Of a stretch of DNA of 43,115 bases, positions 16,299 through 38,988 are shown piece after piece. Made by a program: the position numbers and the translations under genes. The notes beneath the pieces are model-generated. The model was not told the DNA's origin. It saw nothing but the letters and a program-made list of their open reading frames with translations, and ran no database searches. Numbering within the stretch: position 1 is the first letter of the stretch; each line of letters begins with the position of its first letter. This DNA comes from Gemmatimonadales bacterium (GTDB lineage Bacteria > Gemmatimonadota > Gemmatimonadetes > Longimicrobiales > Gaopeijiaceae): the NCBI GenBank assembly GCA_007692665.1, contig REBP01000099.1, positions 1 through 43,115 of the forward strand. Reading direction: 5' to 3'.

Positions 16299-17663
16299 TC
16301 AGGCCGCGCCGAAGAACCCGGTGATCGCGTCCCGGGTGGCCCAGATCTGGAACCAGACCACCACCGCGATGACCGGGGGCAGCAGCCACTTGACGAGGAA
16401 GAGCACGGCGGGCACCGCCCCCGTGAAGCGCGGCCCCGCGCCCCGGAGCATCTCGGCTCCCGGATCCTTCATCCGCCACCCCACGAAGATCGCCATGCTC
16501 AGCGCACCCACGGCCAGAAGCAGTTCCCCGGCGATCTGGTCCACCAGGCCCAGCACGTCGGTATTGTGGGCGGAGGCGAGCCCGAAGATGGCGATGAGGA
16601 TTCCCATCATGATCGCCGCATTCTTTCGAGCGATTCCGAATTCGTCGATGATGGACGACGTGACGACCTCGAGGAGCGAGATCGCCGACGTGATGGCCCC
16701 CACCGCCAGCGCGACGAAGAAGAGCACCCCCACCACGCGACCGGGGCCGCCCATGGCCTCGAAGGCCCCGGGGAGGGCGATGAAGAGGGCCCCCACCGTG
16801 CTTTCGCCCACCGAGTCCTGGAGTCCCAGCGCGAAGATGACCGGGAAGACCACGAGACCGGCGGTGAAGGCCACGGCGAAGTCGGCAAAGGAGATCGTGA
16901 CCGCCTGCTCGTTCAGATCCTCGTCCCGGGCCAGGTACGAGGCGAAGGTGAGCATGGCGCCCATCCCCAGCGAGAGCGAGAAGAAGGCCTGGCTCGCCGC
17001 CTGCCGGATCACGTTGGGGTTCATGAGTTCGGAGAGGTCCGGCGTCAGGTAGTAGGCGTATCCCGCGCCCGCGCCCTCGAGGGTGGCGGCCCAGAAGGCG
17101 AGGCCGATCACGATGACGAAGAGCGTCGGCATGAGCACCATGGCCGCCCGCTCGATCCCCTTCTGCACGCCCACCATGACGATGCCGATGGTGAGCACCA
17201 TGAAGGCGAGGTGCCACCCCATGGCCGCCGGTCCGGCGGCGATCTCGCCGAAGTGCTGACCGGGGTCTCCGGGGAAGCCGGTCATGGCCGACTCCAGCGC
17301 GAAGCGCATCGTCCACCCGGCGATGACCGAGTAGTAGGAGAGGATCAGGAAGCCCACGAGCACGAAGAGGCCGCCAAGCAGGGCCCATCCCCGCCCCCCC
17401 AGTTCCCTGAGCGCCCCGATGGGCGACAGGTGGGTCTTCCGGCCCACCACCAGCTCCGAGAGCATGAGCGGGATCCCCAGGAGCAGGACCATGATCACGT
17501 AGAGAATGACGAAGGCCGCGCCTCCGCCCTCTGCCGCCACGTACGAGAAGCGCCACATGTTGCCAAGTCCCACGGCACTTCCCACGGCCGCGAGCACGAA
17601 GCCCCACTTGCTTCCGAAGAGTTCACGCGCGGGCGTACCGCCGGATCCGGAACCGGTTGCCAT
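16299..17663 (-). CDS. Sodium-dependent transporter, NSS/SNF family
   Basis: The 454-residue protein has about 11-12 membrane helices. Its N-terminus carries the family signature KWGFVLAAVGSAVGLGNMWRFSYVAAEGGGAAF (helix 1, within residues 19-52), with unwound helix-1 residues GSAVGLGN that bind Na+ and substrate in LeuT. Helix 6 region SLGMGAMLTFASY near 240 is also typical, as is the helix 8 stretch. These proteins co-transport amino acids or similar amines with Na+ across the inner membrane. The substrate is not predictable here. Transcription diverges from the CoA-transferase gene; the 269-base gap between them holds dyads and a sigma54 promoter that faces the other gene. Confidence 0.95.
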   Translation of the reverse strand: MATGSGSGGTPARELFGSKWGFVLAAVGSAVGLGNMWRFSYVAAEGGGAAFVILYVIMVLLLGIPLMLSELVVGRKTHLSPIGALRELGGRGWALLGGLFVLVGFLILSYYSVIAGWTMRFALESAMTGFPGDPGQHFGEIAAGPAAMGWHLAFMVLTIGIVMVGVQKGIERAAMVLMPTLFVIVIGLAFWAATLEGAGAGYAYYLTPDLSELMNPNVIRQAASQAFFSLSLGMGAMLTFASYLARDEDLNEQAVTISFADFAVAFTAGLVVFPVIFALGLQDSVGESTVGALFIALPGAFEAMGGPGRVVGVLFFVALAVGAITSAISLLEVVTSSIIDEFGIARKNAAIMMGILIAIFGLASAHNTDVLGLVDQIAGELLLAVGALSMAIFVGWRMKDPGAEMLRGAGPRFTGAVPAVLFLVKWLLPPVIAVVVWFQIWATRDAITGFFGAA

Positions 17664-17700
17664 CGGGTTGCAGCTCCCTCAGAGGGTGCAATCGAAAGCT

Positions 17701-17739
17701 CCGTCGACGGGTGCGGCCGCCTCGGAGCCAAGCCGAGGC
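17701..17739. promoter_or_regulatory. Two dyads, possible enhancer/operator sites
   Basis: A perfect 10-base palindrome CCGTCGACGG (17701-17710) is followed by a 7-base inverted repeat GCCTCGG / CCGAGGC with a 7-base spacer (17719-17739). They lie 55-95 bases upstream of the sigma54 -24 element, the usual range for activator binding sites, and also just upstream of the NSS transporter start. Function is inferred from position only. Confidence 0.4.
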
Positions 17740-17793
17740 AATAGACGGCTCCCCCACCGGCGCGTCAAGGCGCCCCCGGGGCCTGTTCGTGGA

Positions 17794-17809
17794 TGGCACG
17801 CCCGTTGCA
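17794..17809 (+). promoter_or_regulatory. Sigma54 (-24/-12) promoter
   Basis: TGGCACG, four bases, then TTGCA matches the established sigma54 consensus at every defined position, with the required ten bases between the -24 GG (17795-17796) and the -12 GC (17807-17808). Transcription would start near 17820, giving a leader of about 113 bases before the CoA-transferase-family gene, or about 48 before the small leader ORF. A sigma54 activator is needed; an NtrC-type regulator is encoded at 36179. Confidence 0.75.
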
Positions 17810-17867
17810 CTCTCCACGGACCGGTGACAGGACACGATCCTCGGGCACGTTCGGGAGCGGGACTTCG

Positions 17868-17936
17868 ATGACCACCGAGTTGCGCAGAATCGAGATTCGA
17901 TTCGGGCGGGCGGCGACGCCCGGTGCCGTCCGATGA
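17868..17936 (+). CDS. Possible 22-residue leader peptide ORF
   Basis: An ATG at 17868, preceded by a purine-rich GGGAGCGGGA leader, opens a 22-codon frame (MTTELRRIEIRFGRAATPG and three more residues). Its TGA (17934-17936) overlaps the ATG of the large gene at 17933 (ATGA). The large gene itself has no ribosome site, so re-initiation from this ORF is an attractive explanation. The peptide is basic and shows no attenuator-like codon runs. It could also be chance. Confidence 0.4.
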   Translation: MTTELRRIEIRFGRAATPGAVR

Positions 17937-20110
17937 CGAGAAGCGTCGCGGCCGTGGAGGCCTGCGTCGAGCAGACCCTGCGGAGGGTCGGCAAGCGGGT
18001 ACGCCTGGGCACCCCCCTGGGGATCGGCAAGGCCAACCACCTGGTGAACGAGTTCTACCGCAGGGCCGCCACCGATCCGTCCATCGAACTCTCCATCCAC
18101 ACGGCGCTCTCCCTCGGACGCCCCCACGCCTCCAGCGAACTGGAGCGCCGGTTCGTGGAGCCGCTCGCCGACCGGCTTTTCCGTGGGTACCCGGAACTCG
18201 CGTGGGTGAAGCCGCGCCGCGAGGGCAGGCTTCCGGACAACATCCGGGTCCGGGAATTCTACTTCCAGCCCGGGTCGCTCATGGGGAGCCCCAGGGCGCA
18301 GCGGAACCACGTGAGCAGCAACTACACGCACGTCGTGCGGGACCTGCTGGACCAGGACATCAACGTCATTGCCCAGCTCGTGGCGGCGGATCGGAGCAAC
18401 GGCAACGGCGAGGCGGGACTTCGCTACAGCCTGGGGTCGAACCCGGACCTCACGGTGGACATCGTGCCGCATCTCGAGCGGCGGCGGAAGGGCGGCGAGG
18501 AGATCGCCATTCTCGGACAGGTGAACTCCGAAATGCCCTTCATGTACGGGGATGCGGTGGTGGAGCCGTCCTTCTTCGACGGCGTGGTGGACGACCCCGC
18601 CATCGACTTTCCGCTGTTCGGGGCCCCCAACGTACCGGTTTCGACGGCCGACTACATGATCGCCCTTCACGTCGGCACGCTCATCCGTGACGGCGGCACG
18701 CTCCAGATCGGGATCGGCTCCATGGGCGATGCGATCACCCGGGTGCTCCAGCTCCGGCACCTGGAGAACGAGACCTTCCGCCAGGTCGTGGCCGACACCG
18801 GAATCGAGGAGCGGTACGGAGACCTCGTGTCCGCGATCGGGGGACTCGCGCCCTTCGAGGAGGGGCTGTACGCATCGTCCGAGATGCTGGTGGACGGCTT
18901 CCTCGAGCTCCGCCGGAGCGGGGTCCTGCGGCGCAGGGTGTACGACAGCGTTCCGCTGCAGCGGTGTCTGAACGAGGGGCTGATCGGAGAGGCGGTCTCG
19001 CTGGAGGCGCTGGACGCGCTGGTCGACGAGGGGGTCATCGAGGCGGAACTCACAGAGGCCGACGTCGCTTTCCTCGAGCGATACGGACTCCTCCGCAGCG
19101 GCACCCATCTCATCGACGGGAAACTCGTGTTCATCGGCGGACGCAGCACCCCCGCCGACCTCGGAAACGACGTGACCCGACAGTTCCTCCGGGACCATGG
19201 GCTGGGGGACCGGCTGCTGGGCGGTCACTTCGCCCACGCCTGCTTCTTCCTCGGCCCGCGGGACTTCTACCAGGCGCTGCGCTCCATGGACCCCGCCGAA
19301 CGTTCCGGCATCTCCATGACCGGGATCTCGTTCGTGAACGAGCTCTACGGCCGGGAGGAGCTGAAGCGGCTGCAGCGGCGCCACGCCCGCTTCGTGAACT
19401 CGGGGATCATCGCGACGCTGGGCGGGGCCATGGCATCGGACGGCCTCGAGGACGGGAGGGTCGTGAGCGGCGTCGGGGGCCAGTACAACTTCGTGGCCAT
19501 GGCCCACGAGCTCGACGATGGCCGCTCCATCCTCATGCTCACCGCCACCGACGAGCGCGACGGAAGCCTCACCTCGAACATCCGCTCCACCTACGGCCAC
19601 GTCACGATCCCCCGGCACCTGCGGGACATCGTGGTCACCGAGTACGGTATCGCGGACATCCGGGGGCGGAGCGACGAGGACGTGGTCACCGCCCTTCTCG
19701 AGATCGCCGACAGCCGCTTCCAGGACGAACTCCTCGCAGAGGCGAAGGAGGCCCGCCGGGTCCCGGCCTCGTACGAGATCCCGGAGCATGCGCGGCACAA
19801 CCGGCCCGACCGGCTGGAGGACCTCCTCGCGCCCTGCCGGGATCGGGGGCTCTTCCAGGACTTTCCGTTCGGAACGGATCTCACCGAGGAGGAACTGGTG
19901 CTCAAGGATGCGCTCACGGCGCTCAAGCGACTGGCCGGCGAACGGACCGTGCCCATTCCCGGGCTATCCGAGCTCCGGGGTGCACTCCGCGTTCCCGAGG
20001 AGGCGACCCCGTACCTGCGTCGGATGGAACTCGAGAATCCGTCGGGGCTGAACGAGCGCCTGCTCCAGCGCGCGGTAGTCGTGGGGCTGACTTCGGTGGG
20101 TGCGATCTGA
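17933..20110 (+). CDS. Acetyl-CoA hydrolase/transferase family protein (long form)
   Basis: The 725-residue protein belongs to the acetyl-CoA hydrolase / 4-hydroxybutyrate CoA-transferase family. Family-like stretches include LRYSLGSNPDLTVD near 162-175, TLQIGIGSMGDAI near 257-269, SGVGGQYNF near 514-522 and STYGHVTIPRHLRDIVVTEYG near 550-570, the last being the C-terminal AcCoA-hydrolase domain. It would move CoA between acyl groups or hydrolyse acyl-CoA. At 725 residues it is far longer than the ~430-500-residue enzymes and has an N-terminal extension of ~150 residues plus an insert before the C-terminal domain; such long forms exist but are poorly characterised. No ribosome site precedes the ATG. 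A sigma54 promoter and a small leader ORF lie upstream. Confidence 0.88.
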   Translation: MTRSVAAVEACVEQTLRRVGKRVRLGTPLGIGKANHLVNEFYRRAATDPSIELSIHTALSLGRPHASSELERRFVEPLADRLFRGYPELAWVKPRREGRLPDNIRVREFYFQPGSLMGSPRAQRNHVSSNYTHVVRDLLDQDINVIAQLVAADRSNGNGEAGLRYSLGSNPDLTVDIVPHLERRRKGGEEIAILGQVNSEMPFMYGDAVVEPSFFDGVVDDPAIDFPLFGAPNVPVSTADYMIALHVGTLIRDGGTLQIGIGSMGDAITRVLQLRHLENETFRQVVADTGIEERYGDLVSAIGGLAPFEEGLYASSEMLVDGFLELRRSGVLRRRVYDSVPLQRCLNEGLIGEAVSLEALDALVDEGVIEAELTEADVAFLERYGLLRSGTHLIDGKLVFIGGRSTPADLGNDVTRQFLRDHGLGDRLLGGHFAHACFFLGPRDFYQALRSMDPAERSGISMTGISFVNELYGREELKRLQRRHARFVNSGIIATLGGAMASDGLEDGRVVSGVGGQYNFVAMAHELDDGRSILMLTATDERDGSLTSNIRSTYGHVTIPRHLRDIVVTEYGIADIRGRSDEDVVTALLEIADSRFQDELLAEAKEARRVPASYEIPEHARHNRPDRLEDLLAPCRDRGLFQDFPFGTDLTEEELVLKDALTALKRLAGERTVPIPGLSELRGALRVPEEATPYLRRMELENPSGLNERLLQRAVVVGLTSVGAI

Positions 20111-20149
20111 ACCCGACCCAACTTCGAATCTTTCATGGGAGAACGAGTG

Positions 20150-20644
20150 ATGGCAGAGCAGTCGATCTGGAAGCGGGGCATCCTGGTGGGGATGATCGGC
20201 GCGGTGACGGTGGCGGTCTGGTTCCTGATCATCGACGTGATCACCGGTCGCCCCCTCTTCACGCCCGCCACGCTGGGCTCGGCAATCTTCCTCGGCGTCG
20301 AGGACCTGGACCAGGTGGAGGTGTCCGCCGTCGTGGTCCTCGGCTACACCGTGGTCCACCTGGTCGCCTTCATCCTCCTGGGACTCCTGGTGCTGGCCAT
20401 TACCCGGCGCGCCCGGAAGACGCCCCCCCTGGTCCTGGGCGCGCTGCTGGTGTTCGTCGTGCTCCAGGCCCTCTTCATCGGGCTCCTGGCCATCGCCGCC
20501 CAGTTCCTCCTCGGCGCCATCGCCTGGTGGAGCATCGCCGTGGGCAACCTGCTGGCCGGACTGGCCATGGGCTACTTCATCTGGCAGAAGGATCCGTCGC
20601 TCCGGGAGGCCGTCCGCAGGGAGCCGTTCAACAGGAAGCACTGA
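20150..20644 (+). CDS. Four-helix inner-membrane protein of unknown function
   Basis: The 164-residue protein has four clear membrane helices: GILVGMIGAVTVAVWFLIID near residues 9-28, VVLGYTVVHLVAFILLGLLV near 58-77, LGALLVFVVLQALFIGLLAI near 90-109 and SIAVGNLLAGLAMGYFIW near 126-143. The loops are short and the C-terminus is basic. I recognise no family. The ATG at 20150 has GGAG eight bases upstream; an in-frame ATG at 20135 lacks one. It follows the CoA-transferase-family gene by 39 bases and probably shares its sigma54 transcript. Its stop codon is part of a hairpin shared with tamB. Confidence 0.8.
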   Translation: MAEQSIWKRGILVGMIGAVTVAVWFLIIDVITGRPLFTPATLGSAIFLGVEDLDQVEVSAVVVLGYTVVHLVAFILLGLLVLAITRRARKTPPLVLGALLVFVVLQALFIGLLAIAAQFLLGAIAWWSIAVGNLLAGLAMGYFIWQKDPSLREAVRREPFNRKH

Positions 20645-36080: not shown

Positions 36081-36178
36081 GGTCTGCAGGGTCCCGCGAG
36101 TTGCCCGGCGCCGCCGAGGGGACCATGTTCCATGGGATCTTCCGGATTCCCGTCCACGTCTCCCCCCTTTCGGACTCC

Positions 36179-37543
36179 ATGACTCCATCCGCCGATCTCG
36201 AGTCGCTCCACGTCCTCGTGCTGGATGACGAAGCCGTCACCCGCATGGCCATGGAGCAGTGCCTGGTCGACACCCCCCACACGGTCGAGTCGTTCGCAAC
36301 GGCAGACGAGGCCATGGAGGCCCTGGAGTCCGGCAGCTTCGACGTCGCCTTCTTCGATCTTCGCCTGGAGGGTGCCTCGGGCCTGGACCTGATCCCCGAG
36401 GCCATCAAGCGGGTGCCATGGCTCAAGATCATCCTGATGACCGCCCACGGCTCCATCGAGTCCGCCGTGGAGGCCATCCGTGTCGGCGCCGTCGACTACC
36501 TGCAGAAGCCGTTCCGCCCCGCGGAGGTCCGCATCCTGGTGGAGAAGCTGCTGGTCATCCGCCGCGGTGAGCGCAGGGTCGCCACGGTTCGGGAGGACGC
36601 CGAACGCGCCCAGCAGCCCTCCCTGCTGGAAAGCCGGGATCCTGCCATGCAGAAGGTCTTCGACCTCGCCCGGCGCACCGCGCCCAGCGCGGCCAACATC
36701 ATGCTGCTGGGGGAGAGCGGCACCGGAAAGGGCGTCCTCGCAAGGGCCATGCACCACTGGGGGAATACTCCCACCGGCCCCTTCGCGGTGATCAACTGCC
36801 CCTCCCTCTCGCCGGAGCTTCTCCGCAGCGAACTCTTCGGGCACGAACGGGGTTCCTTCACCGGGGCAGTCAAGGCTCACCGCGGCCGAATCGAGACGAC
36901 GCGTGGGGGGACGCTGTTCCTGGACGAAATCGGAGACATGCCGGCGTCGATCCAGCCCCAGCTTCTCCGTTTCATCGAGGAGCGCAACTACGAGCGGGTG
37001 GGGAGCACCGAGACCCGCAGTTCGGACGTGCGCATCATGACGGCCACGAACCGCGACATCCGGGAAGCCGTCAAGAGCGGGGACTTCCGCGACGACCTCT
37101 TCTATCGGCTGAGCGTCATCGAGATCCGGATTCCGCCCCTCCGGGAGCGACCCGCCGACATCGTCCCGCTGGCCTCCCGGTTTCTCCACAGGTTCGCAGC
37201 CGAGAACAATCGGCCGCTCGAGGGGTTCACGCCCGCCGCGGAGCGGCTTCTTGAATCCTACGACTGGCCGGGAAATGTGCGAGAGCTCCGGAACGCGGTG
37301 GAGCGGGCCGTGATACTCTGCGCCGGTCGCGAAATCGGCCCGGAACTGTTGCCGGGCATGGTGTCCGGAGGGGAGGTGCCTGCCCCGGCTCGCGACGATG
37401 GCAGGCTACTTGCTCTCGAGGATCTCGAGAAGTCGCACATCGAACGCGTGCTGGGTACGACCGACAGCATACAGGAAGCTGCATCGATCCTGGGAATCTC
37501 AACCGCGACGCTCTGGCGTCGCCGGAAGAAACATGGACTCTGA
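36179..37543 (+). CDS. NtrC-family sigma54-dependent response regulator
   Basis: The 454-residue protein has a receiver domain (about 10-125; acid pair Asp16/Asp17, phospho-acceptor Asp60, Thr88, Lys110), an AAA+ sigma54-activation domain (about 150-390; Walker A GESGTGKG at 178-185, GSFTGA at 225-230 in place of the usual GAFTGA, Walker B TLFLDE, arginine-finger region FRDDLFYRLSV), and a C-terminal Fis-type helix-turn-helix (EAASILGISTATLWRRRKK). It should activate sigma54 promoters when phosphorylated. I took the ATG at 36179 because it best fits the receiver; an ATG at 36125 has a GAGGGG leader and would add 18 residues. It diverges from the respiratory operon and overlaps the next receiver gene by 11 bases. 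Confidence 0.94.
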   Translation: MTPSADLESLHVLVLDDEAVTRMAMEQCLVDTPHTVESFATADEAMEALESGSFDVAFFDLRLEGASGLDLIPEAIKRVPWLKIILMTAHGSIESAVEAIRVGAVDYLQKPFRPAEVRILVEKLLVIRRGERRVATVREDAERAQQPSLLESRDPAMQKVFDLARRTAPSAANIMLLGESGTGKGVLARAMHHWGNTPTGPFAVINCPSLSPELLRSELFGHERGSFTGAVKAHRGRIETTRGGTLFLDEIGDMPASIQPQLLRFIEERNYERVGSTETRSSDVRIMTATNRDIREAVKSGDFRDDLFYRLSVIEIRIPPLRERPADIVPLASRFLHRFAAENNRPLEGFTPAAERLLESYDWPGNVRELRNAVERAVILCAGREIGPELLPGMVSGGEVPAPARDDGRLLALEDLEKSHIERVLGTTDSIQEAASILGISTATLWRRRKKHGL

Positions 37544-37895
37544 GACCGAACCTCACACCGCTCTCGTGGTGGACGACGATTCCGGCACCAGGACCATGCT
37601 GCGCCTCATCCTGGAACTTGAGGGCTGGCGAGTCCTCGAGGCCGGAGACGGTCGGGAAGCACTCGCGAAACTGAGTCGGAACGGCTCCGGACCCGATGTC
37701 GTCATCACCGACATCGAGATGCCCGGGATGAACGGGCTCGAATTCGCGGCCCGCCTCCGCGAGAGGGAATCCCGCCTCCCCCTGCTGGCCGTGACCCGCC
37801 ACCCGCTCAAGGGTGCGGACACGGATCTCTTCGATCAGGTGCTCCGGAAACCCGTCTCGGTGCGTGCCCTCAGGGAGTGGCTCACGCGTCACTGA
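37533..37895 (+). CDS. Single-domain response regulator (CheY-like)
   Basis: A 120-residue stand-alone receiver: Asp14/Asp15 acid pair (VVDDD), phospho-acceptor Asp60 in VITDIEMPGMNG, Thr88 and Lys106 in LRKP. With no output domain it probably acts as a phosphate shuttle or sink. Its ATG lies inside the end of the NtrC-type gene (11-base overlap), so they are cotranslated. Its last 14 bases overlap the 3' end of the convergent histidine kinase gene, which suggests these three genes form one signalling unit. Confidence 0.93.
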   Translation: MDSETEPHTALVVDDDSGTRTMLRLILELEGWRVLEAGDGREALAKLSRNGSGPDVVITDIEMPGMNGLEFAARLRERESRLPLLAVTRHPLKGADTDLFDQVLRKPVSVRALREWLTRH

Positions 37896-38988
37896 CCGGG
37901 GGTGAACCGGGGGCCGCCATCGGCAGCCTGATCTCGAAGGTCGACCCCGACCCGGGTTCGCTGACGAGTCGAGTCTCTCCGCCCAGCTGGATCACCGCCT
38001 CCCGCACGATCGTGAGCCCGAGCCCGCTCCCTCGCGGATGCTCGGGGCCATCTCCTCCCCGCTCGTGGTACCGGAAAACCCGGTCGTGGTCCGCCTCATG
38101 GATCCCGATCCCGTTGTCCTGCACCTCGATCCGAAGCTGCCCGTCCGCGCACGAGGCGCCCAGCCGCACCCATCGCTCGGATTTGGATGCATCGGCATAG
38201 CGCACGCCGTTCACGAGGAGATTGGACAGGACCAGTCGCATCCGCCCGCCCTCCACCTCCACGGGAGGCAGGGGCTCCCGGATCTCCAGCTGAACTCCCT
38301 TCCGCCGCGCCACGGGGCGGATCCCCAGCACCACCCGGGTGACCACCTGGGGGAGCGGCACCGGGTCTCCCTCGCTCCACTGCTGCGCATCCATGAAGGC
38401 GGCCACGTCGTCCACCGTGTTCAGTGCCGCGTCGATCCCCGCCGCCACCAGGGCGATGATCTCGACGTGGCGCTCCTTTCCAAGGCCGTCCGGGGGATTC
38501 TGCAGCAGGTCGACGCCCGTCCTGGCCGCGCCGAGCCGGTTCCCCAGTTCGTGGGCGAGGATCTCCCCGAAGGTTTCGAGGGCATCGGCGTTCTCGCGAC
38601 TGCGGCGCGCATCCAGCACGTGGTTCAGGCGAACCGTCTCCTCCACGAGGACACGCATCGCCCGGCGCAGGCGAAGACTCACCGGCGGCTCGCCGTTCGG
38701 ATACGGTGCGTCTCCAAGGAGCAGGTCCTCCACGTGGCCCAGCTCGTCCAGCGTGTCCCTGACATCGAAGCCATGGCTTCTGAAACAGCTCGCCAGGTCC
38801 CGGCACGCGAGGCGGAAGTCCTCTCCCACCTCCCTTTCGCCGGAACTCACCCACCCCTGGAGCGTCTCGAGGAGGAGAATGACACGGTCCTGGACGACCT
38901 CCGGCATCGGCAACAGCTGACCCTCCCGGCCACGTGCCTCCATCCACCCGCGCACGAGCGTCAGTTCCTTCGTTTTCTGTTTCTCCAC
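37882..38988 (-). CDS. Cytoplasmic sensor histidine kinase
   Basis: From the GTG at 38988 the protein has 368 residues. The first ~130 are helical, with no membrane segment and no PAS or GAF motif that I can recognise, so the input is unknown. The dimerisation helix has the H-box FGEILAHELGNRLG with His147. The ATP domain has the N-box LSNLLVNGVRYA, DNGIGI at 291-296 and GSGLGLTIV at 320-328. I prefer GTG 38988 because GGAGAG lies six bases before it; a TTG at 39066 would extend it by 26 residues. It converges on the two response regulator genes and overlaps the second by 14 bases. Confidence 0.9.
   Translation of the reverse strand: MEKQKTKELTLVRGWMEARGREGQLLPMPEVVQDRVILLLETLQGWVSSGEREVGEDFRLACRDLASCFRSHGFDVRDTLDELGHVEDLLLGDAPYPNGEPPVSLRLRRAMRVLVEETVRLNHVLDARRSRENADALETFGEILAHELGNRLGAARTGVDLLQNPPDGLGKERHVEIIALVAAGIDAALNTVDDVAAFMDAQQWSEGDPVPLPQVVTRVVLGIRPVARRKGVQLEIREPLPPVEVEGGRMRLVLSNLLVNGVRYADASKSERWVRLGASCADGQLRIEVQDNGIGIHEADHDRVFRYHERGGDGPEHPRGSGLGLTIVREAVIQLGGETRLVSEPGSGSTFEIRLPMAAPGSPPVSDA

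Follow-up and report, generated by a model that had tools for sequence, protein, structure and literature searches.

The sigma54 promoter consensus is TGGCAC-N5-7-TTGCT, according to a 16-phylum regulon survey (PMC12316311). The text of this survey makes no mention of Gemmatimonadota. Among the genes predicted to be under sigma54 control are COG0427 (acetyl-CoA hydrolase) genes of Clostridia, and UspA genes are enriched among the targets, notably in Planctomycetia (PMC12316311). A sigma54 or RpoN regulon study for Gemmatimonadetes, Gemmatimonas, or Gemmatimonadota was not found in the open-access literature searched.

The window, i.e., the whole 43,115-nucleotide stretch of DNA analysed, contains a site that agrees with the published consensus (PMC12316311) at all defined positions. 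It has the same 11-bp distance from TGGC to TTGC, and both rpoN and sigma54 activators are present in the genome. One difference from known sigma54 promoters is the transcription start, which is here predicted from sequence. The gene downstream belongs to the same broad enzyme family as the COG0427 genes of Clostridia (PMC12316311) and is likewise predicted to be under sigma54 control, but its product is a 725-aa protein of a divergent subfamily whose Desulfosporosinus orthologs lack the site. Compared with 4-hydroxybutyrate CoA-transferase (PDB 3gk7, 3eh7), the protein is alike in the C-terminal domain, the GIG motif, and an aligned Glu in (S/T)EM..DG, but exceeds it by ~280 residues and has both an insert and a C-terminal extension.

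The predicted -24/-12 element and its downstream genes

The locus is composed of the following features.

16299-17663, minus strand: sodium:neurotransmitter-symporter-type gene (SNF), divergent
17701-17739, no strand: two dyads, in the start-site/leader region of SNF; not kept as dyads in the relative G001
17740-17768, minus strand: likely sigma70-type SNF promoter, -35 TTGACG (17768-17763), 17-nt spacer, -10 TCTATT (17745-17740)
17773-39190, no strand: 21.4-kb block; in the relatives G001, G021, and G017 it is missing from the space that separates SNF from the citrate-transporter-type gene; edges accurate to ~10 bp
17794-17809, plus strand: predicted sigma54 -24/-12 element TGGCACG-CCCG-TTGCA, identified by exact match, best matrix score, and spacing test
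17820-17821, plus strand: predicted transcription start, 12-13 nt past the -12 C
17868-17936, plus strand: putative 22-codon leader ORF, MTTELRRIEIRFGRAATPGAVR, whose TGA overlaps the ATG of the next gene (ATGA)
17933-20110, plus strand: CoA-transferase-family protein, 725 aa, PF13336 C-terminal domain, Glu317 in SEMLVDG
20135-20644, plus strand: four-transmembrane (4-TM) membrane protein beginning at 20135 or 20150, 24-39 bp after the CoA-transferase gene
36125-37543, plus strand: NtrC-type activator (response regulator, AAA+ with GSFTGA, Fis-type HTH), inside the block
37533-37895, plus strand: response regulator adjoining the activator
37882-38988, minus strand: histidine-kinase-type protein adjoining the activator

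The element TGGCACGCCCGTTGCA matches TGGCACG-N4-TTGCA on the plus strand with no mismatch, exactly as the first-pass annotation had read it. Its GG is located at 17795-17796 and its GC at 17807-17808, with 10 bp between them. The second-best match in the window has two mismatches and is within coding DNA. The element occupies a 269-bp gap between two ATG start codons, at 17663 for the divergent symporter gene and, probably, at 17933 for the CoA-transferase gene. The distance to the CoA-transferase start codon is 123 bp; at the other sites found it ranges from 12 to 236 bp, with a lower median. Sigma54 promoters begin transcription 12-13 nt past the C of the -12 element, and this geometry would place the start at 17820-17821.

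The predicted product of the first gene is an enzyme related to the acetyl-CoA hydrolase / 4-hydroxybutyrate CoA-transferase family. Its PF13336 domain (acetyl-CoA hydrolase/transferase C-terminal domain) scores 127 bits against a Pfam cut-off of 23.7. The catalytic-type Glu317 is invariant in nine orthologs and its segment aligns with that of 3eh7, although, taken by itself, this segment scores weakly. Scores against every named CoA-transferase in NCBIfam, including the equivalogs for 4-hydroxybutyrate, butyryl-, and succinyl-CoA transferase, stay far below threshold (best 53.7 bits vs. a cut-off of 674.8). The ATGA overlap with the putative leader ORF suggests translational coupling. The 4-TM gene is likely on the same transcript, judging from the short gap. 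Its product belongs to no named family (Pfam DUF6077 is below cut-off). Of 59 relatives, 37 have homologues, which are often tandemly duplicated within a single frame, and one of 11 upstream regions in relatives has a sigma54 site (L247).

Sigma54-type sites across the genome

The genome assembly is 4.23 Mb in 258 contigs, is 95% complete, and is 90% coding. The first-pass annotation had proposed a search for rpoN and for further sites with a position weight matrix (PWM). The genome encodes one rpoN (PF04552, E 3.8e-63) and 16 full-length sigma54 activator domains, most of which contain GAFTGA or GSFTGA, the predicted sigma54 contact loop. All five exact copies of TGGCACGNNNNTTGC (TGGCACGN4TTGC) are outside called genes, and four of them are in the sense orientation upstream of a gene (binomial P ~3e-5). 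With one mismatch allowed, a genome-wide count gives 85 sites and so no excess over the 101 of a reversed-pattern control. This count is uninformative because coding DNA swamps the signal, and the scan was therefore limited to upstream regions.

The upstream scan covered 1.64 Mb, in which genes called by a codon-usage model gave 875 upstream regions (168 kb). All scores rest on an approximate sigma54 matrix. At a score of at least 13, there are 51 sense sites; the reversed matrix gives 3 and dinucleotide shuffles give 1.5. At a score of at least 16, the counts are 14, 0, and 0.1, respectively. The window site, at 19.4, has the highest score of all upstream sites in the 1.64 Mb. A matrix-free spacing test gives the same picture. 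In upstream regions of all contigs other than the window, TGGC and TTGC are found 11 bp apart 27 times vs. ~2.4 at other spacings. Since some contigs had been chosen for carrying motif hits, the test was repeated on 0.73 Mb of contigs picked regardless of hits, where the 11-bp spacing is observed 10 times vs. ~0.9. Coding DNA has no spike at this spacing.

The 80 orthologs of the CoA-transferase gene are 43-64% identical, come from many phyla, and have no comparable upstream site (best sense score 10.8). High scores upstream of these orthologs are commoner on the antisense strand than on the sense strand, and the three closest orthologs are in unrelated gene contexts. The closest of all (L063, genome G023, 64%) is broken by a frame change. 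The promoter is of an ordinary, already known kind and, among this gene and its 80 orthologs, is found only in this genome.

This absence of conservation, together with the flat one-mismatch count, would fit a chance resemblance to the consensus that is not used, with the gene driven by a sigma70- or ECF-type promoter. Such a coincidence is very improbable. In upstream DNA the expectation at this score is far below one (the shuffle mean at a score of at least 17 is 0.0), the element is clearly in use elsewhere in the genome, and a strict sigma70 scan of the region upstream of the CoA-transferase gene gives no match. The sequence at 17794-17809 is very probably a functional sigma54 promoter. 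The proposal that the CoA-transferase-family gene has such a promoter is supported by rpoN and by the genome-wide set of such sites.

The 21.4-kb block, the symporter, and the dyads

Homology to the relatives ends at ~17773 and returns at ~39190, so the sigma54 site is ~20 bp inside the left edge of the block. In G001, a member of the same genus, a gene for a small membrane protein lies between SNF and the citrate-transporter-type gene; in G021 and G017, these two are close neighbours. The difference may stem from insertion in the genome studied here, or from loss or relocation in the relatives. The CoA-transferase and 4-TM genes form the left end of the block, and the NtrC-type activator, response regulator, and kinase form the right end. 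An Omp85 protein and a cytochrome oxidase/bc cluster are also present. No tRNA is found in the window, no integrase turned up in the genes scanned, and the GC content of the block is that of its surroundings. Since the element is within a block that is specific to this lineage at this location, predicted sigma54 control of the CoA-transferase gene is local and not ancestral to the gene family.

The symporter gene has no sigma54 site of its own (best score 4.2). Its putative sigma70-type promoter was spotted by eye in the window, G001, and G021, and is not listed by the strict sigma70 scan. The -35 and -10 hexamers are kept in G001 with a 17-nt spacer and in G021 with an 18-nt spacer, and TTGACG-N17-TCTATT is therefore likely the SNF promoter. 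Its -35, at 17768, is back-to-back with the sigma54 element, 26 bp away. This arrangement, and the leader ORF between the site and the CoA-transferase gene, would allow an RpoN-bound site that mainly controls the leader ORF or a small RNA, or that interferes with the symporter promoter. The orientation and distance of the site, and the unobstructed route from it to a 725-codon gene, instead fit an ordinary promoter, and no terminator-like site was seen in 17600-18000. A main target other than the CoA-transferase gene is very improbable.

Two dyads were named by the first-pass annotation as lying at enhancer distance, and both are present as written: CCGTCGACGG at 17701-17710 and GCCTCGG-N7-CCGAGGC at 17719-17739. 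The enhancer role did not hold. Among 229 upstream regions of comparable length, 78 contain a 10-bp palindrome and 90 a 7+7 inverted repeat. Neither dyad is intact as a dyad in G001. Neither is part of the block; both belong to sequence homologous to the SNF 5' region, and because the SNF -10 adjoins the larger dyad, this dyad spans the predicted SNF start. The dyads were rejected as enhancers on their chance-level frequency, their absence as dyads in G001, and their position in the SNF start/leader region; they may have a cryptic role.

The NtrC-type activator of the same annotation is real, though the link drawn from it to this promoter is unproven. It is one of 16 in the genome and is 18 kb from the promoter, and an upstream motif shared by the ~50 sigma54 sites was not recovered (the best dyad, in 7 of 50, is not significant for the number tried). 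The full earlier reading, in which this activator drives the promoter through the dyads as enhancers, has in its favour a suitable distance (55-120 bp upstream) and the presence of activator and promoter in one 21.4-kb block. It is nonetheless highly improbable, the least probable of the alternatives considered here, given that at least a third of upstream regions contain dyads of similar size, that these two are in SNF-homologous DNA beyond the block and are not dyads in G001, and that the 51 sigma54 sites have no dyad in common.

A predicted mechanism and a wider sigma54 regulon

For a sigma54 promoter at 17794-17809, RpoN-RNA polymerase would form a closed complex on the -24/-12 element. 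ATP hydrolysis by one of the 16 activators would open this complex, and transcription would start near 17820 only then. The transcript would begin with a 113-nt leader, possibly containing the 22-codon leader ORF coupled through ATGA. It would span the CoA-transferase-family gene and would probably extend through the 4-TM gene.

Of 59 relatives, 58 have rpoN. Upstream of GlgE genes in the order, scores of at least 10 are observed on the sense strand in 9 of 19 relatives vs. 1 of 19 on the antisense strand. For Ku, the counts are 10 of 29 and 1 of 29. Five GlgE upstream regions from a single genus have diverged except for a conserved block, TGGCCC-N5-CTTGC. The GlgE and Ku sites recur across related families, and the order therefore appears to use sigma54 broadly. 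Predicted sigma54 control is therefore common across the order, whereas that of the CoA-transferase gene is specific to this lineage.

Long arrays of a 7-bp unit, (CGCACTN)n, are found upstream of the GlgE sigma54 site in several genomes belonging to one related family (L277, L280, L276, and L279) and are absent in G000.

Usp genes are over-represented among the candidate targets, with a site at 7 of ~19 units vs. 7.9% of upstream regions (P ~4e-4). Further candidates are Ku, GlgE, DnaK, MscS, and YflT. Usp enrichment and these targets suggest a survival-type flavour, a suggestion weakened by a control of 19 random genes, four of which are stress-type (catalase, OsmC, ClpB, and RecA). The label "stress regulon" stays tentative because this random control also contained such genes. 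An order-wide survival-type sigma54 regulon (Usp, GlgE, Ku, and others, maybe ~100 promoters per genome), into which newly placed genes are wired by near-consensus promoters, is a tentative model with a somewhat less than even chance of being correct.

Two other regions with sigma54-type sites were noted. In L185 (G000:C216:60001-80000), ~9 sites cluster in 20 kb, and several are arranged back-to-back between divergent genes, which encode lactone oxidases, dehydrogenases, and a YflT-type protein. L147:18980-19837 (G000:C15) encodes an alternative sigma factor of the sigma70 type (regions 2-3-4). A sigma54-type site precedes its called start by 18 bp, and the two may form a sigma cascade.

The analysis provides a high-confidence predicted sigma54 promoter and ~50 further candidates in a phylum for which the open-access literature yielded no regulon description. 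Predicted sigma54 control is lineage-local at the CoA-transferase gene and recurrent at GlgE and Ku, and this distribution guides the choice of first experimental targets.
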